From positions 11,112,437 to 11,176,436 of the forward strand of contig CP099840.1 in NCBI GenBank assembly GCA_030062745.1: a stretch of 64,000 nucleotides of DNA, in the 5' to 3' direction. Below the pieces are notes generated by a model. The model worked only from the letters and a program-made list of their open reading frames with translations, had not been told where the DNA came from and did no database searches. Below are positions 362-34,605 of this stretch, piece by piece (within the stretch, counting starts at the first letter, position 1; each line of letters opens with the position of its first letter). The translations under genes and the position numbers were made by a program. This DNA comes from Capitulum mitella (taxonomy: Eukaryota; Arthropoda; Thecostraca; Pollicipedomorpha; Pollicipedidae).

Positions 362-511
362 GAGAACTCCAGCGACGCGGAGGGGTGTCAGCAGGTGCTG
401 CAGTCGATGATATACCCGGCCGGCAGTTCGGCGGACGACAACCCCATGTACGTGCTCTGCTGCAACGACACGTGCAGCTTCACCTGGACCGGCGCCGAGC
501 ACGTCAACCAG
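362..511 (+). CDS. UBR5: UBR5 exon, start of UBR zinc box
   Basis: This exon follows the acceptor ending GGCAG at 361 and stops before GTGAGG, both in phase 0. It encodes QSMIYPAG, then [18 protein letters not shown], the first cysteines of the UBR-type zinc finger. It is the leftmost exon I can support; an exon in 1-361 cannot be excluded. Confidence 0.9.
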
Positions 512-3500
512 GTGAGGGGCAGCAGCGGCTGCGGGAGCTGGCGGTCCGTGGGGCGGCGGACGGCTGTGACGGCTGCCGCAGGAGCTGGGGATCCATGGAG
601 CAGCAGTGGGGTCGACTGTGACGGCAGATGTCAAGAGGCTCTTCTTTGTGCTTGGGTGGGAATGAATGTGGGCTTTAATGATTTGAGTTAATGGAGCTGA
701 TTGTTGTAGGTGTTTTCGATTCCCTGTGTACCGTCTTTGGTTGGTGGCCAGCCTCTTCCCTGACCCCGTCGTCTTGTGCTGCAGGATATCTTTGAGTGCC
801 GCACGTGCGGCCTGGTTGGATCGCTGTGCTGCTGCACGGAATGTGCCCGGATTTGTCACAAGGGACACGACTATAGGGTAAGTAATGTTATGCGTACAAT
901 AATAGAGTTAACCGGTATTCCAGTGGGCACTGGACTGTTTCGTGGCTCGCAGCCTGTTTTATGAAGTCCTACTTTGATTTTGAAGTCTCTTCGCGACTCA
1001 TAATTGTTCTTTGACATAAATCAGGGGTGCTGATTAGAGATCACAGAAATCGTTAGTCCCGTGTATTTGCGGCCATGTCGAGGCGGTGTGTGCTGCGTTC
1101 TGCCTGCCGTTCTCTGGTGAAGCGCGGGCCCGTGATCGTCCGTGGCTCTGACACCTGCCGTTTGCTGTTGTGCGCAGGTGAAGAACACGTCTCCGTCGGC
1201 GTACTGCGACTGCTGGGAAAAGTGCAAGTGCAAGACGCTGATCAGCGGGGCCCAGGCGCCGCGCTACGAGCTCCTCTGTCGACTGGTGGCCGAGACGGAC
1301 CTGGCCAGCCACACCAACGCCCGGTACCACAGCCCAGCACGCGTACAGACACTGGCAGGCAGACGTACAGTGGCTTGACCATCCACACTAATCCCCTACG
1401 CTGGAATCCACCCGTGAGGAAGTGCATGCGCACCTCACGAGCACACCTCACATGCGCATACAGGGAAGTAGACAGGACCTAGCTAGCGATGCCAACATGC
1501 TTTAGAGTACGTCCTCACGGTGGGTGGTAAGCATACCACCATGAACATTGCCTTACCCCGCCAGCTACACTGAAGCCAAGTTGATCAGTCATGACGCCGG
1601 AAACAGTGCATTTTGTCATGACCCTGACATGATATGACTCAGGGCGAAGTTGTAATTGCTGATAAGCAATATGAAAGGTTTGCCATTACCCGAAATATGT
1701 CCTCTTCGCGATGAGGGGGGGATTGTTAAAGAAAAAAAAATATAGAGAATGTCTCACAGTGAAGAAACATCAGTAGTATTATTTTTGTGGCTTTGTCATT
1801 TTTTTCACTTTTTCATTGTCATAGTTTGCTTTTACTGTGACAAACCATGGGAACGTGCGTCAAAGTACGAACTAGCGAGAAGAGAAACATTCGCCTTCTG
1901 TCCGTCTTTTAGCGCTGGTGATTGTCCCTGCTGTGATGGTCAGATGTTTGACTGCGGCTCTCCCTGTCCGCCAGCGGTGAGAACATCCTGCTGTTCCTGG
2001 TGCAGACGGTCGGCCGGCAGACGCACGAGCAGAAGGTGTACCGGCCCCGGCCGCGCACCGCCTCCGTCCGCAAGACGGCCGAGCTCGGTACGCGTGACCG
2101 CCGCCGGTGTCGGCGTCATTGGTCGCTCGCGGCCCTCTGATTCCGCTGGACTTCCGGGCTCGCTGCTCTTCTCCGTCGCCTGATGAAGGCGTTGTGTTTT
2201 GTACGTTGTGTTCTGTCTGCCTTAGGGACGACGTGATGTGCCCGGTGATGTGTGCGTTTGTTCGCCGCCCGGTGGATTGTAGCTGTGCGCCGATGTCCAA
2301 CCGTAGGGGGAATGTTGAAACCACTGACATATCCCGACCATTGGAGATGGCTGGCTGGCTGCCGCAGTTTTCGATTTTCGTTAGGTGATGAGCTATTGTC
2401 TCATGTGTACGGTCTGGCCTCTGCGGGCGTGGTGGCGTGCAGCCGTGATGGTGCTCTGTGACGTGACTTCGGCCGTGACGTGTCGCCGCGGTCGGCCGCA
2501 GACATGGAGATGCCGGACCACGACCTGGAGCCGCCCCGGTTCGCGCGGCGCGCCCTCGACACTCTGCTCAAGGACTGGCCGGCAGTCAGCGCCATGATCA
2601 ACACAGGCGAGTTGCGCCGCACGGCGGAGGAGGCGCCGGGAGGACCTCGCTGACGCCGACAGGCGCGTGGCTGATGGTGGTTGAAGGCTTCAGAGACGTC
2701 GGCTGTTTCGTGCCGCCGCGATGTTATTTGTATTGCTGGTGCCTGTTCGCGGACATCGTTCACCGTTTTTCGTCGTTGAACTAAAGTGCTCTTCGCTGTT
2801 GTTCCCGGCGCCGTTGACGAGTCCTCTGTTCCGCGTGGTCGTTGCCGGCGGTGGGCAATGTGTGACGGCTGTGTTCGTCTGTTTGACAGGCAGCGGCGGG
2901 GCGAGCGCGGCCGGACGGCTGGGTCAGACCGGCACCACACTGCTGGACAAGTTCGTCCACTGCCTGCTGGTCAAGTGCTCCATAGAGGTGGGTCGGACGC
3001 GCCGCACCAGAAGGATGGGTCACGTCTGGAACGTTGATTCTGGATCAGCACGTGAAAAATTGTGGTCTGTTGACCAGACTATGTCTGGTCGTTGCCTGTC
3101 GGCTTTATTGAGATATTTAGTAACGTTTCCTGCTGTATCTCACTTAGGAAATTGTGATATTTTCTCATAACCCATCATCATCATCATCATCATGTATCCA
3201 TTTTTCATATTACGTCTCTCTGATGTAATATGAAATGATGCGTCGCACTCTACCGTACGAGTGGCTCCGTCATCTGGCCGTCAGTGGGTGTTTTGCCCGC
3301 TGTGGGCAAAACACCCACAGCAGGCAAAACATGAAACAGGCAAAATCGCCTCCCTGACGCCAGTGTTGCGTCTGCTGCAGATGCTGAACGTGCTGCTGAC
3401 CACGCTGATCCGGGAGATGCGCAGCCAGCCGGAGGTGGCCACGCCCGTCGCCCGCCGCTTTGTTCGCTCCGTCGCCAGGATCTTCGTCATCCTCAGCGTG

Positions 3501-6500
3501 GAGACGCCGCCCAGCGGGGTCAGGAAGAAGAGGTACGTTGTTTTCCGTCTCGGTGCCGGCGGCCCTGGTCGCGGACGTCGCGGGCTCGAGGTGACCGCGT
3601 CAGGCCGGGCGGTCTCGCCGGCTTTGTGTCGGCGTGATTGGCTGATGACAGCAGCACAGCTGGCTCCGGACTGAGTGATATGTTTGAGGTCGGCTCTCGC
3701 GCTGTCTCCGCCGGTGTTGCCGCCCACCGCAGTCGACTGACGCCAACCTCCCGCCGCCAGCTCGGGCACCAACACGATCCAGCGGTGCCGGCTGGTGTTC
3801 CACAGCCTGCTGTCGCCGGCCGTCGAGGAGCTCTGCCAGACGGCCAACAGCCTGATCGCGCCCGTGCGGATGGGCGTGGCGCGGCCGACGGCGCCGTTCC
3901 AGCTGGCGCAGAGCGGCCAGGAGGCGCTGCACGGCTCTGAGGAGCTGTTCGCCGTGGAGCCGATCGTGGCCAGCGCGGCCGGCGCGGCGACGGCGGCGCG
4001 CGCCCGCAGCCCGCCGCCGGCGCTGCCGCCGCGCGCCGCCGCCGGCCCGCCGCCGGCCGGGCCCTCTTCGTCCGGCGCCGCGGCCGCCGCCTCCGTCATG
4101 TACCAGCAGCTCTCCCGGGACGACCAGGAGGAGAACGAGGGTAAGTCGAGCCGGCAGGCGGTCCGGCGCCGGCCGCTGTCAGCCAAGGGTGTCACGAGAA
4201 GCCCATGCTGATTATAACCACGCAGACCGTATCCGATGTCACTTGATTGGGCAGAGTCGATCCGGAAGGCGAACAACGCCCTCGATCAGTGCAGGTGATT
4301 TGCTAAATGACGGTACACTGAGATAATCGGTTTACCTCCGATTTACACGGATCTATTATTTACACGGATCGTTTCCGGCCGCCGCTCTGTCACCTGTGGG
4401 TGTCAGTCTGTCAGTGTCGGTGCTCGGTGTGGTCCGGACCGCAGGCGGCGGCTCGGAGCTGGAGACCGCCGCTCAATGTCGCCTGTGGATTTCAGTCAGT
4501 GTCATTGGCAGTGTCAGTGTGGTCCGGTCCGCAGGCGGCGGCTCGGAACTGGGGGATGCCGCCGCTCATTGTCACCTGTGGGTGTCAGTGTCAGTGTCAG
4601 TGTGATCCAGTCCGCAGGCGGCGGCTCGAAAGTGGAGGAGGCCGCCGCTCAGTGCCACCTATGGATGTCAGTGTCAGTGTCATTGTGGTCTGGTCTGGTC
4701 CGCAGGCGGCGGCTCGGAGCTGGAGGAGGCCGCCGACCGCGGTGACCGCGAAGAGGGCGGCGGCTACTCGGACATGGAGCTGGACCTCCTGGCCGAGACC
4801 GACTCCGACTCGGACGACAACCAGTCGGCGCAGGACAACGTCTCCGGCGGCCAGCAGAGCGTGCAGACGCGCGCCACGGCCGGCTCCGAGGCGGCGCTGG
4901 CGAGTATCGGCCTCTTTAGCGACGACCGCAGCCCGACGCCGTCCGAGAACGAGGTGGAGGACGAGGACTCGGAGCAGGGCGAGACCGACGACCAGGAGAC
5001 GGAGCTGTTCAGCGAGGACCAGCTGGAGCGGCGCGCCGGGGCCGGCTCCGGCGCCGCCGGCGGCGGCACGGCCAGCGCGCGCGCCAACCTCACGCCGCAG
5101 AGCATGCAGTGGGCGATCCGCTCGCGCGCGCAGGAGGCCGGCAGCTCGCGCGTGACCGGCGGCGGGAGCAGCCTGGTCTACATCGACCCGAGCGCCAGCC
5201 GGCGCTTCACGACCAACGCCGTGCCGTCGTCGGTGCAGAGCAGCGTGCCCGAACCGGTCACCATGGCCACGACGGCGTCGTGCCTGGCGCGCGCGTTCGC
5301 GCTGGTGGTGCGCCAGATTGCCGACTTGCTGAGCGTGGCGCGCGACTGCGGCCAGCCGGACGGTCCGCTGCCGCTGGGCGCTCTCGGCGTCGACCTGATG
5401 GCGGCCGACTGGCGCCGGCTGCAGCTCTACCTGGACCAGCACCTGCAGCCCACCTGGGACTGGCTGCTGGCCGTGATGGACTCGACCGAGGCGCAGCTGC
5501 GCTTCGGCCAGGCGCTGTCGCGCGCCGACCCGACGGCGCCGGCGGCGCCGGCCGCCGGCGGGCCGGTCCCGGCGCGTAAGGAGCGCGGCCGCGGCGCCGT
5601 CACCTTCGCCGACCACCAGACGGCGCGCCGCGACTTCCTCACCTACTGCCTCTCGCTGATGCGCTCGCACAACGGCGAGCACGCCGAGGCGCTGCCTGTG
5701 ATCGACATCGCCGCGCTCCGGCACGTGGCGTACGTGTTCGACGCGCTCATCTACTACATGCGCTGGGGCTCGGAGCTGAAGACGGGGCCGGAGGCGTCGG
5801 CCGAGCGCCTGCTCGACCTGGATCCGGCCGACGAGACCGAGAACGACGACAACTCCGAGTCGGACGTGACCAACAACAACCCGGCGCCGATGGAGACGGA
5901 CTCGGTGACCGACGACGACTCGCAGCTGTCGGCGGCGTCAGCGCCGGCCAGCCGCGGCCGCCGCCACCCGTTCTTCCAGCGCTCCGAGTCGACCCTGTTC
6001 GTGGGCGCGCCGCAGCCGGACCCGTTCGCCGGCTCGCTGTCGGAGGTGCTGCCGCTGGCCGAGCGGCCGCACCTGCTGCAGCCGACCGCGCGCCGCGAAG
6101 ACCTGTTCGGCATCCCGCCGGCGGCGCCGAGCGCCGAGCCGGGCCGCGCCCACCCCCTCCAGGGCATGCCGACCCACCTGGGGCTGGCGTCGCGCTCTGG
6201 CGAGCCGGCCGCCGGCGGCGCCCACTTCAAGCCGAGCGCGGCCGGCGCGGCGCGCACTGCCTTCTCGCCGCGGGCGCGCGCCGAGCCCGAGCTGGGCGCG
6301 CTCAACGAGGGTCTGGGCCACGTGGATAGACTGCTGGAGGCCGGCTCGTCGCTGCTGCCGACCACCGACGGCGACCAGCCGCAGAACCTGTCGACCCGGC
6401 CGGCCGAGGAGGGCGCCGCGCCGCCGCCGCGCGCGCCCATCATCGTCTCGCCCAAGAAGGCGGCCGACGGCGAGCGCCAGCCGGTCAAGAGCGTCATCGT

Positions 6501-9500
6501 GCGCGTCGGCTCCATGATGGTGCACATCGACAAGGAGGCGGGCGGCGCGGACGGCGCGCGGCCGGGCCCGTCCGGCGCGGCCGCGGCCGCCGCCGAGCCC
6601 GGCCCGTCCGGCGCCGACGCTGCCGACGCCGACGTCTCGCAGGACATGCTGCTCGGCCGCTGGCACCTGCTGCTCGACCTGTTCGCGCGCGTCTTCATCG
6701 ACGACGTGGGCCTGGAGCAGGGCTCGGTTATCTCCGAGCTGGGCGGCTTCCCGGTTAAGGAGTCCAAGTTCCGGCGCGAGATGGAGAAGCTGCGCACCTC
6801 GCAGCAGCGCGACATCGTCTTCAACAAGATGGAGCGCGAACGCTCGCAGCTCATCACGCAGACGTTCAAGGAGCTGAACACGCAGTACAACACCAACAGC
6901 CGGCGCAGCACGGCCTCGCACCCGCCGCTGGCCTTCAGCCGGGTTAAGGTCACCTTCAAGGACGAGCCGGGCGAGGGCACGGGCGTGGCGCGCAGCTTCT
7001 ACACGGCCATCGCAGAGGCGCTGCTGCAACCCAAACCGTTGCCCAACCTCGAGAGCTGTCAGATCGTTCAGCTAGGCAAGACCTACGCCTTCTCGTCATA
7101 CCATCACAAGTACAAGAGCAGCCGTGAGTCGTCGCAGCAGCGGGTAGCGCGCGGCCGCGAGGGCCGGCGCACGCTCTCGTGCGACGCGCGCCCGTTCACA
7201 CCCGGCCAGCTGAGCGAGGCGCGCGCCAACGAGCACCTGTCGCCGCACCTGCAGCAGCTGGGCGCGCGCCTGTACCCGCGCGTGCGCGCGCTGCGGCCGC
7301 ACCAGGCGCAGAAGATCACCGGCATGCTGCTGGACTTGTCGCCGGCGCAGCTGCTTCTGCTGCTCGCCTCCGAGGAGACGTTGCGCCAGCGCGTGGAGGA
7401 GGCGGTCGACATCCTGCACAGCCACAGCCGCGAGGCGGCCGCCTCCGAGTCGCTGCTGGGCGACAAGACGCGTCCCAAGGCGTCCGCCCGCCAGACGAGC
7501 GACGAAGACGCGGCCGAGGAGCGCGACCAGTCGCCGCTCTTCTACTGCCCGGGCAAGCGCGGCTTCTACGCGCCCTGGCAGGGCCGCCCCACGCCCGAGC
7601 GTATCAACGCCTTCCGCAACGTGGGCCGCATTATGGGCCTGTGCCTGCTGCAGAACGAGCTGAGCCCGATCTCGATGTGCCGGCACGTGTACAAGTACGT
7701 GCTGGGCCGGCCGGTGCGGTTCCACGACCTGGCCTTCTTCGACCCCCTCATCTACGAGTCGCTGCGGCGCCTGGTGGTGGACGCCGAGACCAAGGGCGAC
7801 AAGGACGGCCTCTTCTCGGCGCTGGACCTCACGTTCAGGTGGGTCTAGCCGCTGGCCGGCGGCGATCGATTGTTAGATGGTGTGATGTCTGTTGATTGAT
7901 CCTGGTTTGTGGTGTGGTTACTTCGGGCTGATCGACGTCGGATTGTCCACGTACTGGGGTATGCGAGTGTCTTGGTTTGAAATCATGCGTCGGCCGTGCG
8001 GCGCTTTCGTCTCAGGCGTGAAGTATTTATGGGTAAGGCCAGTGTGGTTTTCCTCCCACATAGATATTTTACCTGTCTCCTAGTAAGTGCAGTACAAAGG
8101 AAGAACTTCAGAGTGAGGTGTGATGTTACATTCTTTTTGGGCATACGGGGGCTGATTCCGAGCTTTTGAGACATCCCTCACCGAAGGCGGCAACTGCCTC
8201 GGTAGCCCGGTTAGCGCCATTCGTGCTTGGTGTGGCGGTACGGGCTGCATGTGCTGACTGACCCCGGTGGCCGCCTGTGACCCGGCAGTATCGACCTGTG
8301 TGCCGAGGAGGGCGGCTGCACGGTAGACCTGGTGCCCCGCGGCGTCGAGATCGAGGTCACCTCGCAGAACGTCTACGACTACGTGCGCCGCTACGCCCTC
8401 TACCGCATGGTCAAGTGCCAGCAGAAGGCGCTCGAGGTGAGCGCTGCCGCCATGGTCATGTTTCGGGGGGAGGGGAGTATAATCGTCTGTGTGTGGTCTG
8501 TTTGATGTTGCCATCAGCTGACGGGAGCCCGTGTCAGAGCTGGTTTACTTATGATTACAGTGTTGTGCACGTCGGTCAGCGCAGAGGGCGAATGCCAAGC
8601 GGCCTATCAGCCGTCAGTTACGCCGGAATTCAGTACTGTCTTGTGGTCAGGGTCAGTGATTGATGCCGTTATTGGATGTTTGTGTGCTTGTTCGGTAGAC
8701 TAGGGTCTGTGGAACGCTTTACTTCGCGACACAGCGTTGGGCTGTGGAGTGTAGCTGTTTAGCTGCTTTAAGTTTACCAGCCAGGGAAGCCCTAATTATA
8801 ATTAGCCTGATCGTATTAGGCCCATGTTGGCGCAGCCCCGTGAATCGTGCCGTCTGTTCGTACATTTGCGACTAAACGCGTGCACTATTCAACATCCATT
8901 ATGGACGTGTTGTCTCGCGCTGCGGGTGTCTCGTCAGCCCGTAGCTCTGCCGTGAGTGTGTTCCGTGTACCTGGGGCTCTTTGGACACGATCCGTCCCTT
9001 CCGTAACCTGCATCACCCCCTCCTCTGCCCTGGACCAGCGCCGGGCGGGCGCTGCTAACGTTCGTCTGTCTCCCCGGCGGCAGGCGCTGAGGGCCGGCGT
9101 ACTGGACGTGCTGCCGCAGTCGGTGCTGCACCCGCTGACGGCCGAGGACCTCCGCCTGCTGGTAAACGGCGTCGAGGACATCTCGGTGCCGACGCTCATC
9201 TCCTACACCAGCTTTAACGACGAGAGCGGCGAGCCCGGCGAGCGGCTGGTGCGCTTCAAGCGCTGGCTCTGGCAGATCGTCGAAAAGATGACCAAACCGG
9301 AGAAACAGGATCTGGTGGGTGGCGCGGCCAGAATCCGTTCGGTGGTGTCTCTGGTCGACAGGCCGGGCTTGGAATTGTTTGTTTATTAGGGCGCACGGCC
9401 TCTTGGGTTCTAGCGTTCGGTCTGGGTTAGGTCCTGTGTGTCGTCGGGCGTCGATCAGTGATATGTGGGGACTAATTTCTGGATGAATTCCATAATATCT

Positions 9501-9855
9501 GCGGCGAGACAAGAACCTGCGCCGTTGTTCATCTCAGCAACGCGAAATGTCATGGCTACTCGTTTGAAGAGTGCTGGCAGGATGAGGACATGACAGCAGT
9601 TCCGTGCCGTTCGTTCTGACCCCCGTGTTCGCCCTCTGCCAGGTATACTTCTGGACCGGCTCGCCGGCGCTGCCTGCCAGCGAGGACGGCTTCCAGCCGA
9701 TGCCGTCCGTGACGATCCGTCCGGCCGACGACCACCACCTGCCGACGGCCAACACGTGCATCTCGCGACTCTACGTGCCGCTCTACTCCAGCAAGCTCAT
9801 CCTGCGCTCCAAGCTGCTGCTCGCCATCAAGACCAAAAACTTCGGCTTCGTGTGA
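362..9855 (+). CDS. UBR5: UBR5/hyd-type HECT E3 ubiquitin ligase, 3' part of gene (12 exons)
   Basis: The exons are 362-511, 785-877, 1178-1323, 1975-2087, 2502-2606, 2890-2987, 3381-3532, 3761-4140, 4706-7838, 8289-8436, 9084-9314 and 9643-9855. They join in one frame of 1653 codons plus TGA. The order matches the C-terminal half of UBR5: the UBR zinc box ([37 protein letters not shown]), the [12 protein letters not shown] block, [13 protein letters not shown], an acidic [14 protein letters not shown] stretch, PHLLQP, the MLLE domain ([20 protein letters not shown]) and the HECT domain ending FGFV. By family, UBR5 binds N-degrons through the UBR box, recruits PAM2-motif partners through MLLE, and transfers ubiquitin through the HECT cysteine. 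The start and the UBA region lie left of the window. Identity is very secure. Exon edges rest on GT/GC-AG sites and matching phases. Confidence 0.95.
785..877 (+). CDS. UBR5: UBR5 exon, core of UBR zinc box
   Basis: The exon runs from the acceptor GCAG to the donor GTAAGT in phase 0. It encodes [20 protein letters not shown], then [11 protein letters not shown], the cysteine/histidine core that coordinates zinc in UBR boxes. Confidence 0.95.
1178..1323 (+). CDS. UBR5: UBR5 exon, end of UBR zinc box
   Basis: It starts in phase 0 after GCGCAG and ends in phase 2 (CG|C) at a GTACCA donor. It encodes [20 protein letters not shown], closing the zinc box, then a helical segment ([14 protein letters not shown]). 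Confidence 0.93.
1975..2087 (+). CDS. UBR5: UBR5 exon, post-UBR helical segment
   Basis: It enters in phase 2 after CGCCAG and leaves in phase 1 at GTACGC. It encodes [20 protein letters not shown], then [17 protein letters not shown], matching the UBR5 stretch that follows the zinc box. Confidence 0.93.
2502..2606 (+). CDS. UBR5: UBR5 exon with [12 protein letters not shown] block, GC donor
   Basis: It enters in phase 1 after CCGCAG and encodes the conserved [12 protein letters not shown] block, then [12 protein letters not shown]. It ends in phase 1 as ACAG followed by GCGAGT, a GC donor. Reading on reaches a stop without any UBR5 similarity. The only nearby GT would need a poor donor plus a shifted acceptor. 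Confidence 0.88.
2890..2987 (+). CDS. UBR5: UBR5 exon ([12 protein letters not shown])
   Basis: It starts in phase 1 after TTTGACAG and ends in phase 0 at GTGGGT. It encodes a glycine/serine-rich linker and [15 protein letters not shown], matching the UBR5 segment LDCFTHCLIVKC. Confidence 0.93.
3173..3193. repeat. (CAT)7 microsatellite
   Basis: Seven perfect CAT units lie in the UBR5 intron between exons 2890-2987 and 3381-3532. Confidence 0.9.
3284..3318. repeat. Perfect 15-bp stem hairpin in UBR5 intron
   Basis: GTGGGTGTTTTGCCC and its exact reverse complement are separated by five bases. It sits about 60 bp upstream of the exon at 3381. It could form a strong RNA stem near the acceptor. 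No function is known. Confidence 0.85.
3381..3532 (+). CDS. UBR5: UBR5 exon ([13 protein letters not shown])
   Basis: It runs from the acceptor CTGCAG in phase 0 to GTACGT in phase 2. It encodes a helical block that includes [17 protein letters not shown], nearly invariant in the family. Confidence 0.95.
3761..4140 (+). CDS. UBR5: UBR5 exon ([12 protein letters not shown]) with Ala/Pro-rich tail
   Basis: It enters in phase 2 after GCCGCCAG and leaves in phase 1 at GTAAGT. It encodes [17 protein letters not shown], then [21 protein letters not shown], an alanine/proline-rich low-complexity run and an acidic end. It lies immediately before the intron that holds the splice-site array. Confidence 0.94.
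4396..4730 (+). repeat. Tandem array repeating the 3' splice site of the UBR5 giant exon
   Basis: Four units of 83-90 bp each contain a GTSTCAGTGT-rich tract, GTCCGCAG and the first 20-30 exon bases (GCGGCGGCTCGGAGCTGGAG or close variants). AG ends lie at 4444, 4534, 4617 and 4705. Only the last continues into the conserved protein. Read in the exon phase, copies 1 and 2 meet TGA at 4606, and copy 3 shifts frame and meets a stop at about 4743. So three decoy acceptors lie in the intron upstream of the functional one. Confidence 0.9.
4706..7838 (+). CDS. UBR5: UBR5 giant exon: acidic region, MLLE domain, HECT N-lobe
   Basis: This is a single 3133-bp open exon, phase 1 in and phase 2 out. In order it holds the acidic [14 protein letters not shown] segment (about 4774), STEAQLRFG (5487), [16 protein letters not shown] (5662), PHLLQP (6067), [16 protein letters not shown] (6649), [13 protein letters not shown] (6757), [11 protein letters not shown] (6949), the MLLE domain (about 7250-7430) and [12 protein letters not shown] plus [12 protein letters not shown] of the HECT N-lobe (7540-7660). 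Base composition is extremely GC-rich, so several long antisense open frames are shadows. Vertebrate genes split this region into many exons, so it looks like fused exons or lost introns. Confidence 0.96.
8289..8436 (+). CDS. UBR5: UBR5 exon, HECT domain
   Basis: It enters in phase 2 after CCGGCAG and leaves in phase 0 at GTGAGC. It encodes IDLCAEEGG and [20 protein letters not shown], the UBR5 HECT segment before the C-lobe. Confidence 0.95.
9084..9314 (+). CDS. UBR5: UBR5 exon, HECT domain
   Basis: It is phase 0 at both ends (GGCAG acceptor, GTGGGT donor). It encodes [38 protein letters not shown] and the [12 protein letters not shown] segment of the HECT domain. Confidence 0.96.
9643..9855 (+). 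CDS. UBR5: UBR5 last coding exon, HECT C-lobe with catalytic Cys
   Basis: It starts in phase 0 after CTGCCAG and ends at TGA 9853-9855. It encodes [20 protein letters not shown], then [19 protein letters not shown] and the terminal KTKNFGFV. The TGC at 9757-9759 in TANTCISRL is the thioester-forming cysteine by family alignment, so catalysis appears intact. Confidence 0.97.
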
Positions 9856-10538: not shown

Positions 10539-10763
10539 TTACTTGCTGACGTGCCGGTTGACGGCGGGCCGGGCGCCGGACGGGGCCGCCTTCTCGCTGG
10601 CGGCGCGGCCGGCGGCGCGCGTCAGGGTGCCGGCCGGCGCGCTGTTGAGCCGCTCCAGGTCTCTCAGCAGACGCGCCGACGCGTCCGGCGGCGACCGCTT
10701 GGCCTCCTCCGAGCTCAGGCTGGTCGAGCTGGCCACTGGCGACACGGCGTCCTCGCACACCCC
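10539..10763 (-). CDS. NOS1AP: NOS1AP last exon candidate
   Basis: It is open in phase 0 after CCGGCAG and ends at TAA 10539-10541. It encodes [20 protein letters not shown], a Ser-rich stretch, the helix [12 protein letters not shown] and VNRHVSK. I see no direct similarity to the vertebrate C-terminus. The call rests on the matching phase, coding-like composition and position. Confidence 0.65.
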   Translation of the reverse strand, partial: GVCEDAVSPVASSTSLSSEEAKRSPPDASARLLRDLERLNSAPAGTLTRAAGRAASEKAAPSGARPAVNRHVSK

Positions 10764-13700
10764 CTGCCGGCGGCCGGCCGGTCAGGTGCCGGCGGAGCAG
10801 TGGAGACGGCTGGGGGCCAATCAGGTACCGGCGGAACAGCGGAGACGGCAGGGGGCCGGTCAGGTGGCGGAGGAGTAGTGGAGACGGCAGGGGGCCGGTC
10901 AGGTGGCGGAGGAGCAGTGGAGACGGCAGGGGGCCGGTCAGGTACCGGCGGAACAGCGGAGACGCCAGGGGCCGGTCAGGTAGCGGAGGAGCAACGGAGA
11001 TTACCACGATGGGTAGGCTACGCAATAAGCAGCTGACGTGAAACTCGTGGATATGACATCATCGATACATTTTAGAGAAATACGGGCTGAGCAGCATGAC
11101 AAGAGGGTGCTTGGAAATCCGCTGAAAGAGCGGAAAGGCGCAGGGGTTGGCAAGATATTGTTTGTCTACGAGTCACGTCAGATCACAAGACTTCGGAACG
11201 GAAGTGGCATTCAACTGACGAGGGGCTCTGCTGATGGAACGGTGATTGCATGAACGACACTTGTAAACGATGTCGAACTAAATACGTCAACACTGCGCTG
11301 TTTTGTTCCGAAACACCGAGATCCAATGGTTACCGAGATTCGTTAATTAATTAACGAATTAATTAACGAATTGTTAATTAAGTTAATTCGCGTTGGGTCT
11401 GCGGCCTCCCGTCAGATTGATCCCTAGACTGCAGGACACATGCATGTTCTACAGACATCTCAAATCCAACTCAACTGTTCTTGTCCCACTTTCGTTTCGA
11501 TACAGCTGTGATGATACGATGTCCTTTGGCCCATATCTCTACACCTCTTGCCTCATTTACATATCTCTTCCCTGGCCCCGTAAACGTCCCCTTTCACTCT
11601 CGATCCTCCCCGTCCCTGACCCATCTTTTCTGCCCTTGTTCCCGTCTGGCCCATAATTCAGCTCGCCTCTGTTTCCTCTGCTCTGTCCCTGGTCCATCTA
11701 CCTCCTTCGTCTCTCATCGACATTCCATATACGCATCCATATCCATTCCTTGCCCTAGCGCTCTGCCAGGCTCCCCCGTGCCTCCCCCTTCCCCGGCCGT
11801 CCCAACCGACGGACCTTGTCCCGGGTGGCGTCGCGCTCCTCCATGGCCTGCAGCTCGGTGACCAGCAGCTGCACGTGGTCGAGCAGCTCGCGGTTGTGCA
11901 GCAGCAGTTGGTGAGTGCGCGCCTGCGCCTCCAGCCGGGCGGCCGTCTCGGCCTGCAGCTGGTCCCGCACCAGGTGCACCTGGGCCAGCGCCGCCTGCGT
12001 CTGCTGCTGCTGCTGCACCAGTCGCTCACGCATTAGCTGAAACACGGCACAACAGTGGACTGAAACACGACACAGCGATGAGCTGAAACAAGGCACAACG
12101 GTGAAGGTAACACGACACAACGATGAGCTGAAACACGACGAAGGCGGTGAACTGAAACACGGCACAGCGGTGTTTCAGTTTTCAGACACAGCAGTGAGCT
12201 GAAAAACGACACAAGACGGTCGGCCGAAACATGGCACGCAGTCAGATGATATCTGGATCAGCTGAAGCACGGCAGATCAGTCAGCCGAGCTCTGGATAGT
12301 TGACACACGACACAGCAGTCAGCCGAGCTCAGGATTAACCGATACACGACAAAACAGTCAGCTGAGCTCTGGATAGTTGACACACGACACAGCAGTCAGC
12401 CGAGCTCAGGATTAACCGATACACGACAAAACAGTCAGCTGAGCTCTGGGCAGACCCGGGCAGGCCCGTCAGGCGGCACCACTGTGAGGCTCTGATGGGT
12501 TGTGACAGACAACGGTGAAGTTCGGCCACGACAGGATCATGTGCGGAAGAAGAAATATTCCGCGTTTGATGATTTAGGGCCGTCTCCCCCCCCCCTCCAT
12601 TGCGATAAAATATCATGACGCCTTAAGGCACCGGCTCCAGATGCAGAAATATGCAAAACGAACGCCTGCCGTGGTAAAATTTTACCCATTTACTGACATG
12701 CTGAAAGCAATTACATGCACTTTTCAGACAACGCTGCAAAACAGCAAAACGCTGCAAAATTTATAAATCGCAATTCATAAGCCGCAAAACCTGGTAAATC
12801 TGGTGCGAGCGAGCCGGCTGCGCCCACCTGCAGCTGATGGTACAGTGACGAGGAGCCGGCCAGCCGGTGCGTCTCCTGCGCCGCCTCTGGCCCGGAAGAA
12901 GAGAGCGCCTCGGGCGAGAGGGTGGCGGCGCGACGGCCGTCCAGCGGACTGGCCGGCACGCTGAGCGCGTCCAGCAGCAGGTGTCGCCGCTCGGCGGCCA
13001 GCGCCGGCAGGCTGAGCGGCTCGAGCCGGCGCCGCTCGGCCGGCGAGGCGGAGAGCCGGTCGCGCCGCGCCGGCCGCCGGCCTTCCGGCGAGCGCGGCCG
13101 CTCGGTTGCGGCGCGCGGCCGCTCCGCCGGAGACTTGGGCGGCTTGCGCGCCTCGGCCGCCGGCTCGGCCGCCGCCGCCGGCTCGGCCGTGAACTGGTAC
13201 GACGGCGGCGTCTCCATGCTCGGCTGCTCCGAGGAGGTGTCCGTCGGCGCTGTGGGCGGGGGCTCGAGTCAACGCGTACTGGGTGTTCCGATACGCTTGG
13301 AATTGGAATCGCGGGTGTTTTGAAGCAAGAGCGTCATTCATCCAACTAGCCGCGACGGTGGACCCGCCTTGAGAATGCTCTGTCGCAAACCTTCCAGAAG
13401 CCATTACGATAGGGAAGACAGACTTGAAACGCATTCTGGACTTCAAAGCGCTTTAGACTGATTTCCTGACGACTGAACAGAAAAGCAATAAGCTAAAGCC
13501 CCGACGAAAAGAATCCAGGCCAAAGCAATCGTAAAAAACCACGAGGGCACGCATGATTTGTTGGCAGGATATTTCGGTCGCGACTGGCCCAGCTCCAGAA
13601 CAACCTATTGCCTTCCCACTTCAAATGAGATGTGAGACGCGCTTTAATACCGCCGTAGATCTCGGCCAGCCTGGCAGGGGCCCGAAAATCGGACGGCCCG

Positions 13701-19182: not shown

Positions 19183-22100
19183 AGACATAGGTACACGCCT
19201 CGCAAAACATAGGAATGCTTCTCATCAAGACCTTGTGTAAGTGCGGCCTGTGGAGCGCAGGCACCATGAGTCACGAACCTCTCCTTCCTCTCTTGACCAT
19301 GTTTTGGACGGATTTTTCAAAGTTTACTCATTATGCTTGGGTGTAGGAACCTTCTTTACTTTCCGAAAATCGAGGACCCGCTCACCAATGCATACCCGGA
19401 TATATTTCGACGTTTTCTCTCTCTGCAACACCACAGGACCAATGTTAAGATCACTCAAAGTTGAATGCGCCACCACCAGACTGGTAGGACCACCACTCTA
19501 CCTGTCTTTTGTCACTTGGGGCGGAAGGCGTTCCGGCAAGGCTGACACCGGCTACTTTTCGAACCATTTCTTTTCATGCAACGCCATAGGATTAATGTTA
19601 AATTTCTTCGGTTAAGGCGGGGGGGAGGGGCACTGTGCCCCCGTGCACCCCCCGTTCCGCCACCTTTGCCTTTTGTGCTCCTACATTCAGGGACACGGTT
19701 TACGTTTGATTCGATGAAGTACTTGTGTCCGCCGCGCCGTAAGTTCTTGGCACGCCTACCACCTGTTCCGCAATACATGTCTGCCTTGCGGTACAGCATC
19801 ACCTGTAGAGCATTCGGTTCGGAGTGGGACGGAGGGCACGAGAGAGTACCGATCCCTTATTACAAGCCCGACGGTATTAACAGAACCGATAATCGACAGG
19901 AGTGCCCGTCTTAATTCAGGAAATATCGGCTCACCATAGCTGTGAATCCATTTTGAAGTCTTGGCGTCGGTGGGCCAAAGGTTCAGACCAAAGTATGGAA
20001 TAAAGATGGGGATCAAACTCTTCAATCTGGTACTAGCTACAGTAGTCACAAAGAGGATATGTCAGTCCTAGATGTATAATGCGCCATTTGACACAAGGAC
20101 ATTCCAGTTTAAAAACACACTTCTGAGGGATAAATTAATCATTATCTCCAGTCCGCAAGAGGTTACTGGCGTTTTTTTCCAACCGCGAAACCGACGCAAA
20201 TAAACATGAACACCTCGAGAGTGCAAAAGCAGCCCGTGTTCCTGCACATGTATATATGCGACCTGTTCCTGTGGCCCTGTGGACAGCTCGCTCTGACAGG
20301 CCCTGAACTCGGCACGGTACCGACGGATCACAGCGTTCTGCCGGCCGCAGGGGTGCCGTGCCCGGCTCACCTGCCGGCTTTTTGGCGGCGTCGGCGCTGC
20401 TCGGCTCGCTGTCGGAATCAGACGGATGGCTGAGCGGCGCGGCCGCCGCCGCCGGCGCCGGCGCCGGGGCCGAGGCCGGCTCGGCGGCGGCGGCGGAGGT
20501 GGCGGCAGCGGACGGCACCGCCGGCGGCGCCGGCGACGGCTGGTCGGCCAGACTGACCTCCAGGCTGTGGCATACCTCGAACGCCTGGCCGACGGTCCTC
20601 ACTACCTCCAGCGCCTGGCTCTGTCGGCGAAACGGCGGGAAATCAGACACGGAACGCTTGGGCGGGGCTGGACCGAAGCGAGCACGACCATAAATGAACA
20701 ACATCAGCAATGCTTTAACTGTATCGTTCAAGTTCTTTCCAAAACGAAAATAGGGGATAAGCTCTAGTCATGTGCACCAGTGCATTACCGAGCATGTGAC
20801 TATCCGGTGGTCTAGGCGATGACAGGTCGAAAAACTTCCGTTCTGAACTTAATGGTACAGTCGGGCCAGCTGGCTGTTTATTTGGGCGTGCGAGCACGCC
20901 AGCTGCCGGGTCACGTGATCTGATACGGCTCGGCCGGAGCGTCACAACCAGGAAAAGACCCCAAGCTGTCGGCTGAACCGTGCAGCACGGCGCATTTGGC
21001 TCACAGGACGTGGTAATGCCGCCACGGAGGTACAAACAGGGCCACGATGGCTGATGATGACAAAAATGCAGCACGGGCTGGGGATGAAGAACAGCGATAA
21101 GTTGTCCAGTTGGGTTTATTAGGACGTCGTGAGGTGGTCTAAACGTTGAAACATGAATGCAGAACAGGCGCGTCAGGCGCCCAGCACCGGCCGTATTTTA
21201 GTGGAGCTTGGCTGCAATCGCGTTGATCCTCCGAACCCGACGAAGTGAAACTACGACCCGAGCTCCGACGGAAAACGACAGAGGCCCTGGGCGCCCGAGA
21301 CTGCCAGTACGGCTCTTGCGAGGACAGTATCCAGACCAGTGGCCAGCCGTACGTGGTACGGTCTGTGAGCCCTAAGCCTGTCCAGAACTGGTGTGATTGC
21401 TCCCGGACCGTCAGTTCAAGACGCTGTGTGACAGCTCCCCTGGCCTGACTGCTCAGAGCCACAGTGTCAGCTCCCCGGACCTGACTGTTCAGACCTACTG
21501 TGACAGCTCCCCGGACCTGACTGCTCAGAGCCACAGTGACAGCTCCCCTGGCCTGACTGTTCAGAGCCACAGTGACAGCTCCCCGGACCTGACTGCTCAG
21601 AGCCACAGTGACAGCTCCCCTGGCCTGACTGTTCAGAGCCACAGTGACAGCTCCCCTGGCCTGACTGCTCAGAGCCACAGTGTCAGCTCCCCTGGCCTGA
21701 CTGCTCAGAGCCACAGTGACAGCTCCCCGGACCTGACTGCTCAGAGCCACAGTGTCAGCTCCCCTGGCCTGACTGCTCAGAGCCACAGTGTCAGCTCCCC
21801 GGACCTGACTGCTCAGAGCCACAGTGTCAGCTCCCCGGACCTGACTGTTCAGAGCCACAGTGTCAGCTCCCCGGACCTGACTGTTCAGAGCCACAGTGAC
21901 AGCTCCCCTGGCCTGACTGTTCAGAGCCACAGTGTCAGCTCCCCGGACCTGACTGTTCAGAGCCACAGTGACAGCTCCCCTGGCCTGACTGTTCAGAGCT
22001 ACTGTGACAGCCGCTGAGCCTGTCCGTCCTGTTCTGTTGTGCTCTGCCGGCGGGCCTGACGACCCCGGACAGGTGTGCGGCCGCCCCCGCCCCCGCCCCC

Positions 22101-31100: not shown

Positions 31101-33768
31101 AGCGCACCGAAAATCGAGTAATAAAATAACTCGGAGCCGGTTTTCGATAGAGCACTTTTCAGACCAACCGTTTTAATCCTTTTTTGATTTTCATAAAGAG
31201 CAATGCGGCCCAGAACGCTACAATTAATTTCAACCCCGTCAGATTGTTCACTGGCACACAAAATAATTTCCAAGCTAGTGAGAAATTATCAAATCTGAGG
31301 CCCCACATATCGAACTATTGGCACGATCTCAGATTAATGCATACTGCTGGAAAGACGACCATCGCCCTATGAGATCATGTCGCTCACGTCATCCGATAAA
31401 TCAAATTCAGCGACCAAACAGGCATTTCACGATTAATGCGGCTTTCCGACTTGTGACTGGAAGCAGCACACGCTTACCTTCTTCGCTGTTTTTAAGGTGA
31501 CTTCTATTCCCGCAGAGCTCACTTTTATAGTGACGAACTTTTTCTTGATCCCTTTGTTCTTGAACTCCAACTGGATGCAGCAAAAAGCAAAACAAAACAA
31601 GTAACCAAACATGAAAACACTTGTGTCGAATTCCAAATGAATGGTTAGTGCAGTCACAGCCGGCGTTTTTGTTTCGCCTTTTTTTGTTTGTTTTATTGTT
31701 TTTGCTTCAATGACATTGTTTTAGTCCGCGCCATCAGATACGTTCCGGCAGCAAGACCGGCCTAACATTTAGAAAACAGTTTTAGACCATACGATTGCTC
31801 TACTGAGTGATACATAAACTTAGCAAATGACTATTGTCGTGCTGAGTGTTTACCTAAGCCAAAAGAAATTAGTTCAGACTGACGTCGTGATCTGAGCAAC
31901 GAGCTGACTGTCGCAACTGTTGCTTCACCTTATCAGACGCACACAAGCCACTTCTAGCAGTCTAACACTGTTTCGCGGTCAACCCCAGACGGCGATAACA
32001 TAAATATTTCGTTTTTTTCAGCCCTGAATGCGGGGGTACGAGGGGACATGTCTCAGCCTGACCAGCTTACCCGGACCTTCCTCATGGCCTGCACGATGTC
32101 CAGCTTACTCCGGGGCGGGGGAATGTTCATCGATCCAATGTACTGTCGACAGAGTGAAGGAGGTCAGTTCCATGTAATGTACTGTCGACAGAGTGAGGAA
32201 GGTCAGTTCCCGGATCCATCCAATGTGCTGCCAATAGGATGATGGAGGTCGGTTCATGGATCCATCCGGTGTCCTGTCGACAGAGTGAAGGAGGTCAGTT
32301 CACGAATCCATCCACTGTGCTGTTGACGGGGTGATGGAGGTCAGTTCACGAATCCATCCAATGTACTGTTGACGGGGTGATGGAGGTCAGTTCACGGTAC
32401 CTGGCAAACAGCTCTCATGGGACGCCGGTCACCGGCTCGGCGACCCCGTCCTTCCGATGGCCGACGAATGCGATTTAGACGGGATTTCGTATCATTTGAT
32501 TTTAAACTTTATTCATTATTTCAGGGGTGTAACGCATCGATTACAACCCAGCTATGTCGCAAATACTACAATAATGAATGCGCTGAATACCGCAATTTTT
32601 CGCAATATCTACAAATTCCAGTCCAAATACGTGAAACGTCAGACAAAAGTGTTGCCGCAGCATGCGCCTTGGTTGTTATCTGTTGGTATGTTATCTGACG
32701 TTGGTATGTGTGTGCTGCTGTTGGTATGTTATCCCCTGTTCCGAAACCAGAGGTGTCGGCGGCAACAGGGAGCGTGACCAGCGCTGTAAACACGCGCGGT
32801 CTGCTCGGCGGGGCGGTGCCACCGCCGCCGGCAGTAATGGCGGCAGAACACGCGGTAAAGGCCGCTTGTTTACGCAGACTGGGCCCCCCGCCCAGTCTGC
32901 TAAAAACTCTGCGTCTCGGCAGTGCCAGCCGAACCCGGAAGCCGCAGTCGCCAGCCGACGGAGTGCGTTCATGAGCTAGATCTGGGACCGAGGCTTGACA
33001 AACACTGTTTCCGTCTCGGCAAGTTAACGGATGAAATGTTTGAACTTTGCAATAGCAAAATTATGAGTGCGCCCTTGTTTGAAACACGCCAGCCTAAAAT
33101 ATGTTGCCTTTGAACTCAGTTATCCTGCAACTTCACTCAACTTTCTGCTTTCTTTCGCATCAAAATAATGCACTATCATTTGAATACGTAATTAATGTTG
33201 TTCTACTCCTACAGGATAGTGCCTCAAGCACCTTGTGGTTTTCACTAAGTGGCATTGGAAGTCAAAGCCATCTATCTAATTAAAACGGTTACGTTAATAC
33301 ACTCCTTTCTCAATCCTTAAATGGGACGTTAATTTCGCACACTTTGTCCTCAGCACAGCAAACACAGGTGAGTCATGCAACTGCAAACATCTGAGATTAT
33401 AGAGAAATATAACCTCGAATCTTAACGAAAGTTGTGAAGCCTTCGTTTTGGGCCTGGCTTTGCTCCGGCGCGTGTGAGGAAGGCTACGTGCACCGAAGCG
33501 TCGCTGCGCTCAAAGACAGTCGGCCTTTGTGACATTGCTGGCTCACCCTAGCTTCAAAGGACAGGCCCTGTTGGAAGGCCTCCTCTGAATGCAACGAGAT
33601 TCTTCCGTCGTCGTTGAAGAAGCCATACTCCTTGGCGTTGGACGCTTTCGCCGCCCTTGGCAGCGTGGCCGCCTTCCGTTCCACGATGGCGTTGTACTTT
33701 TCGCCAGCTTGAGCCAGCACTTGGCGCACGCGGCTGGCGTCTGCAAGCAGAGTCGGCGTGAAGTGCAT
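10539..33768 (-). CDS. NOS1AP: NOS1AP/CAPON-type PTB adaptor protein (9 exons)
   Basis: In order of transcription the exons are 33768-33547, 32142-32071, 31570-31478, 30871-30816, 29467-29359, 20620-20371, 13249-12828, 12036-11815 and 10763-10539. All phases match and give 556 codons plus TAA (human protein about 500). The PTB domain is recognisable: [80 protein letters not shown]. An Ala/Pro/Ser-rich linker and the coiled coil ([30 protein letters not shown]) follow. The family tethers nNOS, Scribble and small GTPases at membranes and synapses. The start codon and exon 1 limits are uncertain. The C-terminus lacks the vertebrate nNOS PDZ ligand. Confidence 0.88.
10778..11000. repeat. 39-bp minisatellite next to the last NOS1AP acceptor
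   Basis: About 5.7 copies of a 38-39 bp unit start TCAGGTRSCGG at 10782, 10821, 10860, 10899, 10938 and 10976. The array stops about 15 bp upstream (on the - strand) of the exon 9 splice junction but does not contain the junction. Confidence 0.9.
11338..11392. repeat. TTAATTAA-rich palindromic tract
   Basis: Iterated AATTAATTAACG units form overlapping palindromes in the NOS1AP intron between exons 8 and 9. Confidence 0.8.
11815..12036 (-). CDS. NOS1AP: NOS1AP exon 8 (coiled coil)
   Basis: It starts in phase 0 after GTGTTTCAG with [20 protein letters not shown], then [17 protein letters not shown] and [13 protein letters not shown]. This closely matches the NOS1AP coiled coil. The donor AAG|GTCCGT is weak. 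If it is not used, the frame continues 19 codons to a stop at 11755-11757, an alternative C-terminus. The acceptor is the exon-proximal copy of a 23-bp array. Confidence 0.9.
12037..12205 (-). repeat. 23-bp tandem array repeating the coiled-coil exon's 3' splice site
   Basis: On the - strand, TTTCAG followed by CTMAT or a close variant recurs with AG ends at 12037 (the used site), 12060, 12083, 12128, 12152 and 12199. Degenerate copies lie between and beyond. The unit is about GTGTTTCAGCTCATCGCTGTGTC, minus or plus a base. Read in phase 0, the copies at 12060, 12083 and 12128 meet stops at or before the exon. Confidence 0.88.
12290..12445. repeat. 77-bp tandem duplication
   Basis: Two near-identical 77-bp units start CTCTGGATAGTTGAC at 12290 and CTCTGGATAGTTGAC at 12367. 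Weaker CAGTCAGCYGAGCTC half-units are inside. It continues the low-complexity zone upstream of NOS1AP exon 8. Confidence 0.85.
12828..13249 (-). CDS. NOS1AP: NOS1AP exon 7 (low-complexity linker)
   Basis: It enters in phase 1 after CGCCCACAG and leaves in phase 0 at GTGGGC. It encodes [13 protein letters not shown], then Arg/Ala/Pro/Glu-rich repeats and LYHQLQ. The end joins the coiled-coil exon as [18 protein letters not shown], like the vertebrate HQMQLLQQLLQQQQQQTQ. Most of it has low conservation, and the assignment rests on phase and context. Confidence 0.8.
13640..14045. promoter_or_regulatory. GC-rich island with CRE and E-box
   Basis: This CpG-rich intronic segment contains CACGTG at 13929-13934 and a full TGACGTCA at 13947-13954. 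It may be an internal promoter or enhancer. The open frames here have no coding support. Confidence 0.3.
15235..15830. promoter_or_regulatory. GC-rich island in NOS1AP intron 6
   Basis: About 600 bp of CpG-dense sequence lie in AT-rich surroundings. No exon can be defined. It is a possible regulatory island. Confidence 0.25.
16205..16582. repeat. Long imperfect inverted repeat
   Basis: TGTGCTCTGATTCGGAGTTA near 16218 recurs in reverse complement near 16545 (ATAACTCGGAATCAGAGCAC), and similarity extends over about 80 bp per arm with about 220 bp between. It could be a foldback or miniature element. No target duplication identified. Confidence 0.6.
17322..18640 (+). mobile_element. TTAA piggyBac-like miniature element, family 3 copy A
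   Basis: The left TTAA (17322-17325) is followed by CCCGCGCATTGGAAGGGGG, about 30 bp of extension with a second GCGCATTGGAAGGG, then the AAGTGCCCCCCC hairpin region. The right end carries GGGGGGCACAAAAAGACCCC and a decayed terminus (GCGCGTGTAA). Inside are repeated TGACCTTGACC motifs at about 17991, 18130 and 18283. There is no transposase frame. Copy B at 50.9-52.5 kb is inverted and matches along its length. Confidence 0.75.
19080..19185. repeat. AT/TA microsatellite
   Basis: A long (TA)n run with GTGTGTGT interruptions. Part of NOS1AP intron 6. Confidence 0.9.
19560..19700. mobile_element. Possible end of a hAT-like miniature element
   Basis: CATGCAACG...TTAATGTTAAA is followed by G-run/C-run hairpins and GGTTCCGCCACC-like sequence (TTCCGCCACCTTT). 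The same arrangement recurs inverted at 61.95-62.09 kb, and a related end lies at 35.6 kb. Limits not defined. Confidence 0.35.
20371..20620 (-). CDS. NOS1AP: NOS1AP exon 6 (end of PTB domain and linker)
   Basis: It starts in phase 0 after GCCGACAG with [18 protein letters not shown], the C-terminal PTB helix. It continues as an Ala/Pro-rich run and an acidic DSDSEP segment. It leaves in phase 1 at GTGAGC. Confidence 0.93.
21433..22008. repeat. 36-bp minisatellite, 16 copies
   Basis: Sixteen contiguous 36-bp units (GACAGCTCCCCTGGCCTGAC then TGYTCAGAGCCACAGT) vary at a few positions: CTGGCC/CGGACC, GYTC and GTC/GAC. Since 36 is divisible by three, both strands stay open (12-residue repeats such as [12 protein letters not shown]). 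No start context, splice sites or family similarity supports a protein. It lies in the 8.7-kb NOS1AP intron 5. Confidence 0.93.
22025..22330. promoter_or_regulatory. GC-rich island beside the 36-bp minisatellite
   Basis: CpG-dense sequence directly follows the minisatellite, with GCCCCCGCCCC Sp1-like runs and several GGCGCG motifs. Regulatory function is inferred. Confidence 0.25.
24225..24617 (-). CDS. Candidate alternative first coding exon within NOS1AP
   Basis: The ATG at 24617 has an in-frame TAG four codons upstream. It opens 131 codons ending at a good donor (GTCTGGAG|GTGAGG) in phase 0, compatible with the phase-0 acceptors of NOS1AP exons 6, 8 and 9. The peptide has a basic [19 protein letters not shown] motif, then GRDKYRQ, an Ala-rich run and [21 protein letters not shown] do not recognise a family. 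It lies in a GC-rich island with a TATATATAAA tract about 440 bp upstream, so an internal promoter is plausible. An independent gene is the alternative. Confidence 0.45.
24618..25070 (-). promoter_or_regulatory. GC-rich island with TATA-like tract upstream of the 24.6-kb exon
   Basis: About 400 bp of CpG-rich sequence precedes the candidate exon. A TATATATAAA tract at 25061-25070 reads TTTATATATA on the - strand. Promoter activity is inferred only. Confidence 0.3.
28680..29110. promoter_or_regulatory. GC-rich island with CRE upstream of the PTB exon
   Basis: This CpG-dense segment has TGACGTCA at 28692-28699. It lies just downstream (on the - strand) of NOS1AP exon 5 at 29359. Its open frames show no family similarity. 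Confidence 0.25.
29359..29467 (-). CDS. NOS1AP: NOS1AP exon 5 (IFYVSHD)
   Basis: A 109-bp exon from the acceptor TTTCGCAG (phase 2) to the donor GTAAGT (phase 0). It encodes [17 protein letters not shown], then [13 protein letters not shown], among the most conserved PTB residues. Confidence 0.95.
30816..30871 (-). CDS. NOS1AP: NOS1AP exon 4 with GC donor
   Basis: A 56-bp exon after GTTGCAG in phase 0. It encodes [18 protein letters not shown] and leaves in phase 2 as CACAG followed by GCGAGT, a GC donor. Joined to the next exon it reads [13 protein letters not shown], the family's [13 protein letters not shown] block. Confidence 0.85.
31478..31570 (-). CDS. NOS1AP: NOS1AP exon 3 (PTB beta strands)
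   Basis: A 93-bp exon, phase 0 at both ends: acceptor CATCCAG, donor GTAAGC. It encodes [20 protein letters not shown], then [11 protein letters not shown], aligning with YEFKAKNIKKKKVSIMVSVD of the vertebrate protein. Confidence 0.93.
32071..32142 (-). CDS. NOS1AP: NOS1AP exon 2 (YIGS)
   Basis: A 72-bp exon, phase 0 at both ends: acceptor CTGTCGACAG, donor GTAAGC. It encodes [20 protein letters not shown], then RKVR, matching the family's YVGSLDVPRP...AAMRRIR. The acceptor is the exon-proximal copy of a 46-bp array. Confidence 0.93.
32135..32398 (-). repeat. 46-bp tandem array repeating NOS1AP exon 2's 3' splice site
   Basis: Six copies lie on the - strand with AG ends at 32143 (used), 32182, 32228, 32274, 32320 and 32366; spacing is 39 bp once, then 46 bp four times. 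Each contains GAACTGACC, a pyrimidine tract, CAG and a variant of the exon start TACATTGGATSGAT. Read in phase 0, copies 2, 5 and 6 hit a stop within the array, so only the proximal copy is productive. Confidence 0.9.
33547..33768 (-). CDS. NOS1AP: NOS1AP exon 1 candidate (start of PTB domain)
   Basis: It ends in phase 0 as GAAGCTAGG before [25 protein letters not shown] followed by SFEAR resembles the family's DDG-RIPLH-E-AFQ-G-FEAK start. From the ATG at 33766-33768 there are 51 residues before NDDG, against about 10 in human, so either the protein has an N-terminal extension or the real exon begins at an internal acceptor such as TTGCAG near 33735. Confidence 0.7.
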
Positions 33769-33828: not shown

Positions 33829-34605
33829 TCACAAACGGTCGCAGTACCCGGGGCAGCCGGGACAAACGGTCACAGTACCCGGGACAGCCGAAACAAATGG
33901 TCACGGTACCCGGGACAGCCGGGACAAACAGTCACAGTACCCAGGACAGCCGGAACAAATGGTTACGGTACCGGGGACATCCGAGACAAACGGCCACAGT
34001 ACCCGGGACAGCCGGAACAAATGGTTACGGTACCGGGGACAGCCGGGACAAACGGTCGCAGTACTCGGGACAGCCGGGACAACCGGTCACGGTACCTGGG
34101 ACAGCCGGAACAAACGGTCACGGTACCGGGGACAGCCGGGGCAAACGGCCACAGTACCCGGGACAGCCGGAACAAATGGTCACAGTATCCGGGACAGCCG
34201 GGACAAACGGTCACAGTACTCGGGACAGCCCGAACAAATGGTCACAGTACCCGGGACAGCCGGGACAAACGGTCACGGTACCCGGAAAGCCGGGACAAAT
34301 GGTCACGGTACCCGGGACAGCCGGGACAAACAGTCACGGTACCCAGGACAGCCGGAACAAATGGTTACGGTACCGGGGACAGCCGAGACAAACGGTCACG
34401 GTACCGGGGTCAGCCGGGACAAACGATCACAGTACCCGGGACAGCCGGAACAAACGGTCACGGTACCCGGGACAGCCGGGACAAACGGTCACAGTACCCG
34501 GGACAGCCGGGACAAACGGTCACAGTACTCGGGACAGCCGGGACAAACGGTCACGGTACCCTAGACAGCCGGGACAAACGGTCACAGCACTCGGGACAGC
34601 CAAAT
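33829..34605. repeat. 30-bp minisatellite, about 26 copies
   Basis: The unit is GACAAACGGTCACAGTACCC followed by GGGACAGCCG, with frequent KpnI-like GGTACC variants. All three + frames stay open because 30 is divisible by three; these are not genes. It begins about 60 bp beyond the candidate NOS1AP start codon, so it would lie in its 5' flank or first intron. Confidence 0.93.

Follow-up and report, generated by a model that had tools for sequence, protein, structure and literature searches.

The window, that is, the whole 64,000-nucleotide stretch of DNA analysed here, carries a UBR5 homologue on its forward strand, with Pfam matches to MLLE (E = 1.3e-18) and HECT (E = 1.2e-10), and a NOS1AP homologue on its reverse strand, six exons of which were matched by tblastn (best E = 1.9e-21, weakest 0.002) using human NOS1AP as the query. 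A further Pfam search of the UBR5 homologue returned HECT again (E = 3e-9), together with a UBR-box match below Pfam's cutoff, and no Pfam family was found for the six NOS1AP stretches searched, nor for the coiled-coil stretch. Exon models, which are not an annotation, were built with a small script that combined generic splice matrices with codon scores trained on exons of the window, and were then corrected by eye. The script chains comprised 28 rows on the forward strand and 27 on the reverse strand, of which 10 and 6, respectively, were retained (some with edges shifted by eye) and the others dropped; one exon on the forward strand and three on the reverse strand were added by eye or by tblastn. 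The resulting hand-checked models give 20 acceptors, 18 donors, and 18 complete introns, which makes an initial statement that three of 19 introns carry arrays about right. Tool-based homology supports nine of the 20 exons, namely the NOS1AP exons at 33740, 32142, 31570, 29467, 20620, and 12036 (tblastn) and the UBR5 exons at 785, 4706, and 9084 (Pfam, with the match at 785 below Pfam's cutoff); the remaining 11 were modelled from coding score, frame, and general knowledge of the proteins, and exons between 511 and 4140 may have been missed. The curated exons (362-9854 and 33740-10539) have a GC content at third codon positions of 0.93 over 2,158 positions, which is unusually high for an animal and probably too high for amphioxus, and the NOS1AP donor at 30816 (ACACAG/gcgagt) appears to belong to a GC-AG intron.

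The NOS1AP coiled-coil exon (11815-12036, reverse strand; acceptor GTGTTTCAG/CTAATGCGT, donor GACAAG/gtccgt) was placed by tblastn together with the exon model. Its translation is 64% identical over 67 amino acids to human NOS1AP (E = 1.9e-21), so that its first assignment to this gene stands. The preceding exon (12828-13249, reverse strand; donor CTGCAG/gtgggc) was modelled from coding score and frame only and had no Pfam match; the intron between the two spans 12037-12827. At the 3' end of this intron lies a tandem array with a period of 23 bp, which runs on the reverse strand from about 12215 to 12037 and ends at the acceptor (12037/12036). The interval originally proposed, 11815-12270, takes in the exon itself. 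A typical unit, CTCATCGTTGTGTCGTGTTTCAG, consists of a YTCAY motif, a T/G-rich tract, and CAG. Tandem Repeats Finder (TRF) reported two rows with period 23 (5.9 copies, 73% matches, score 137; and 7.7 copies, 66% matches, score 135), as well as a row with period 45 (2.2 copies, score 153), whereas among 300 shuffled versions, which could fall up to 30 nt short of the intron's length, any array scoring at least 40 arose in 7, with a maximum of 60.

TTTCAG followed by CTMAT had been said to recur at least six times at a spacing of about 23 bp. From 12215 to 12036 the hexamer is indeed present in six copies, the next base being 12198, 12151, 12127, 12082, 12059, and, at the true acceptor, 12036, with spacings outward from the exon of 23, 23, 45, 24, and 47; exact CTMAT, however, follows in three of the six (12127, 12082, and 12036), and the other three continue with CTCAC, TTCAC, and TCCAC. 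An AG is kept at five of the seven upstream unit positions in 12215-12037 and is absent at 12105 and 12174. Decayed copies further out, also claimed at first, are represented by an eighth, more decayed unit position at 12229-12224, which reads TTTCGG and lacks an AG. In most units, a CAG follows YTCAY after about 18 nt, and general splicing knowledge would allow YTCAY to be read as a branch-site-like motif. With a generic acceptor matrix, three of the five upstream AGs scored above the true site (8.9, 7.4, and 6.8 versus 5.7), one equalled it, and one was lower (4.7); site score alone therefore does not account for the presumed use of the last acceptor. Further upstream in the same intron lies a related 39-bp/77-bp array (12252-12449, reverse strand), which shares GCTGTGTCGTGT with the 23-bp unit and contains, as first reported, a 77-bp duplication (12278-12449; 98% matches by TRF).

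Three other arrays in the window lie at or near acceptors. Array 1 (4421-4735, forward strand) consists of 83-90 bp units before the UBR5 exon 4706-7838; TRF delimited 4499-4735, and the outermost copy was added by eye. Its three upstream copies (base after the AG at 4445, 4535, and 4618) each carry about 33 nt of the exon head. Array 2 (32139-32397, reverse strand; TRF) consists of 46-bp units before the NOS1AP exon 32142-32071 and has five upstream copies (32181, 32227, 32273, 32319, and 32365), the best of which matches the start of the exon exactly over 10 nt. By matrix score, the true acceptor is the highest in array 1, while in array 2 one copy scores above the true site and one equals it. 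Array 4 (10776-11000, reverse strand; 39-bp units, 5.8 copies by TRF) contains no exon sequence and stops 12 nt before the presumed acceptor of the NOS1AP last exon at 10763, an exon modelled from frame and reading by eye; several of its units contain CCTGACC, branch-site-like by eye, along with pyrimidine runs. Elsewhere, the long NOS1AP intron holds a 36-bp array (21428-22011; 16 copies, 92% matches) with open reading on both strands, in which a weak Pfam match to YodE lay below the cutoff and was set aside as likely spurious, and a 31-bp array of 25 copies (33831-34601) lies upstream of the NOS1AP exon at 33740, stopping some 90 nt short of it. Arrays with a period of at least 14 and a score of at least 50 make up 8.9% of the 26,196 nt in the 18 introns.

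To determine whether the repeat units include exon sequence, we took each AG preceded by six bases similar to those at the true site and aligned what follows it with the head of the exon. The match was set against 4,000 draws made at random from the full set of curated exons in the window, the tested exon included. The match was significant for array 1 (seven AGs, including its three copies; P = 0.0000, 0.0003, and 0.0000 at 10, 16, and 24 nt, respectively) and for array 2 (eight AGs, including its five copies; P = 0.0025, 0.0008, and 0.0003). These two arrays duplicate the acceptor together with exon sequence, with P at most 0.0025. For the five AGs of the 23-bp array, the corresponding values were 0.080, 0.097, and 0.102, no better than chance, and we rejected the claim that it demonstrably includes exon sequence. 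As far as can be demonstrated, this array ends at the junction, and the resemblance to CTMAT could be due to chance. The preliminary description had counted three junction-inclusive arrays; the two sister arrays are such, and the 23-bp array, with P of 0.08-0.10, is not demonstrably so.

A process that duplicates 3' splice sites had also been proposed, with the provision that tandem repeats no more frequent at acceptors than at donors or random intron positions would refute it. We made this comparison within the window with a point test, in which a second copy of 24 nt of intron plus 16 nt of exon was sought on the intron side, up to a distance of 700 nt. At scores of at least 28, 32, and 36, copies were found at 3/20 acceptors and 0/18 donors, versus 6.7%, 5.9%, and 4.8%, respectively, of 1,177 intron positions. 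At a score of at least 24, they were found at 4/20 acceptors, one of the 18 donors, and 9.2% of intron positions; at scores of at least 40 and at least 50, at 2/20 acceptors and no donor, with 4.8% and 3.6% of intron positions. The excess at acceptors is not significant, either against intron positions (3/20; binomial P = 0.07-0.15) or against donors (Fisher P = 0.135). A placement test, in which arrays (period at least 14, score at least 50) were put freely along their introns, edges included, was more favourable: of the nine intronic arrays, four have their end no more than 20 nt from an acceptor (P = 0.015, with the 20-nt limit picked after array 4 had been seen), and three overlap one (P = 0.078). 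None of the nine lies near a donor, and the probability of so few is about 0.25. Across seven threshold choices, yielding 6 to 15 arrays, P ranged from 0.010 to 0.027 within 20 nt and from 0.065 to 0.092 for overlap. Earlier placement values (0.0001 at 5 nt and 0.0000 at 20 nt; 20,000 placements) were discarded because their null confined arrays to introns. An acceptor-specific process in the window is thus only suggested, with the placement test speaking for it and the point test not bearing it out.

The consequence of using an upstream copy could be read from the frame. A premature stop would follow from the use of any of the 17 upstream AGs found from 12445 to 12059, and likewise of any upstream copy in array 1 (3/3) or array 2 (5/5). 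When the 300 nt upstream of each of the 20 acceptors are considered, however, 254 of 262 AGs are likewise not open in frame (8/262 are open), and we rejected the idea that stops at all decoys are a sign of selection; being at the base rate, they show a consequence, not selection. Counting the first seven unit positions out from the exon, only 12105 and 12174 would keep the frame open, and these are also the ones that lack an AG, an arrangement with a post hoc probability of 1 in 21, or of 6 in 56 when the out-of-frame eighth position is counted. We regard it as a lead only.

The array is a real feature, most likely brought about by neutral growth of a minisatellite where the intron ends. Specifically, we consider it probable that the 23-bp array is a minisatellite of the 'mirage' type described in amphioxus (Ebner et al. 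2010, PMC3087553), the product of ordinary growth tolerated at the 3' end of an intron. Tandem duplications would have grown there, probably by slippage or unequal exchange, with each new copy falling upstream of the authentic acceptor. The exon-proximal acceptor would presumably be the one used, leaving the mRNA unchanged, and misuse of an upstream copy would yield a frameshifted or stop-containing message, probably removed by decay. Because the message would stay unchanged and misspliced products would decay, growth of the array would be nearly neutral, with the coding sequence on one side as its only bound. Consistent with this, the units of arrays 1 and 2 reproduce the start of the exon along with the end of the intron, which is what tandem duplication across the junction predicts; the upstream AGs would lead to premature stops, although at the base rate; the arrays at or across acceptors have differing units; the introns of the window are rich in minisatellites, which we counted for plain minisatellite growth; and the published amphioxus cases, which have the same anatomy and in which splicing is reported undisturbed, were counted likewise. 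That the arrays lie closer to acceptors than free placement predicts (P = 0.015) is left without explanation by plain minisatellite growth.

It is on this last point that a mutational process acting preferentially at 3' splice sites, through pyrimidine-tract breakage or slippage, R-loops, or spliceosome-linked damage, and repeatedly duplicating acceptors in this genome, would have its advantage. It would account for four of nine arrays within 20 nt of an acceptor with none near a donor, for junction-overlapping repeats at 3/20 acceptors and 0/18 donors, and for units that differ between loci. We nevertheless consider it unlikely, given that the point test is not significant and its scores of 40 and 50 are passed by two of the 20 acceptors only, that strict overlap reaches P = 0.078, that the absence from donors is itself not unusual, that the 20-nt limit is post hoc and the data come from one window only, and that amphioxus mirages hit both boundaries (PMC3087553). 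An extension of the same idea, to which we give somewhat less credence still, would make 3' rather than 5' splice sites the duplication hot spots of this lineage, with about one acceptor in five (4/20 in the window) abutted by an array, an acceptor-tied process writing the arrays, and decay of stop-containing products keeping them tolerable.

Functional readings fare worse. The copies could act as a splicing switch, in which upstream acceptors divert transcripts to decay (unproductive splicing) and thereby tune the NOS1AP level; most intact units, with YTCAY about 18 nt before CAG, resemble a whole acceptor module, all five intact upstream AGs lead to premature stops, both open-frame positions lack an AG, and a human ABCA7 repeat (a variable-number tandem repeat, VNTR) with a donor in its unit changes splicing (PMC5954066). 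However, the eighth position is out of frame and has lost its AG all the same, stops and frame shifts occur at the base rate, and the existence of sister arrays, including one in an unrelated gene, points to a general cause, all of which makes a switch very unlikely. Selection for acceptor redundancy, raised in the preliminary description, would treat the copies as spares, and each array does hold several intact AG copies; yet an upstream copy would not restore the correct message, since none of the 17 upstream AGs leaves the frame open, so the copies cannot act as spare acceptors and such selection is scarcely credible. Tandem repeats often assemble badly, and a wrong copy number or a misassembled array has parallels in an amphioxus mirage aberrantly assembled in a draft (PMC3087553) and in the lancelet PGBD5 locus, known in two versions with different copy number (PMC3902484). 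The PGBD5 repeats, however, were upheld by resequencing (PMC3902484), and the units here have diverged from one another (66-73% matches in the period-23 rows), as artefactual duplicates would not; we judge an artefact extremely improbable, though the exact copy count of the 23-bp array may be wrong.

Several known systems resemble the array. Close tandem acceptors of the NAGNAG kind have AGs spaced a few nucleotides apart; the 23-bp array likewise has successive AGs at a single 3' end, but its nearest AG upstream of the true acceptor is 23 nt away, and what recurs is a whole acceptor-like module. Human segmental duplications contain internal tandem repeats, with units of about 30 bp on average, some of which lie at exon-intron boundaries and can change splicing, but these are recent and variable among paralogs, with about half in coding exons (PMC2812944). 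The VNTR in intron 18 of human ABCA7 is a donor-side analogue, being a minisatellite at an exon edge with the splice site within its 25-bp unit, the first two bases of which are the donor; a frame shift results when one additional unit is used. It differs in repeating a donor rather than an acceptor, and in being a human polymorphism with measured effects on splicing (PMC5954066).

The closest precedent is the amphioxus mirages, so that there is a named system, where the initial description had known of none. Mirages are minisatellite-like tandem duplications at exon-intron boundaries, with units of 10-160 bp, found in several genes (PMC3087553), namely Adh3, the globins BflGb6 and BflGb9, troponin C, and PGBD5 (PMC3087553, PMC3902484; the latter adds PGBD5 and cites troponin C); AG/GT signals are present in the copies and splicing is reported undisturbed (PMC3087553; PMC3902484). 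The 23-bp array shares with them (i) its position as a minisatellite-like tandem array at an exon-intron boundary and (ii) a splice signal in many copies (AG at five of the seven unit positions of 12215-12037, though not at the eighth). Spanning of the boundary by the unit holds for sister arrays 1 and 2, whereas the 23-bp array, as far as can be demonstrated, stops at the junction (P = 0.08-0.10 for its exon-side match); moreover, mirages occur at both donor and acceptor boundaries, whereas in this window acceptors alone are affected. The phenomenon is therefore of a known kind, of which the 23-bp array is a borderline member. The window adds boundary minisatellites in two genes (UBR5 and NOS1AP), with three to four cases in 64 kb and very GC-rich coding sequence. 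If the acceptor bias holds genome-wide, duplication at intron ends would connect with proposed routes of intron gain, a process to which decay has been linked in Drosophila (PMC2809761), and the arrays would offer natural test cases for how the spliceosome chooses among near-equal acceptors.
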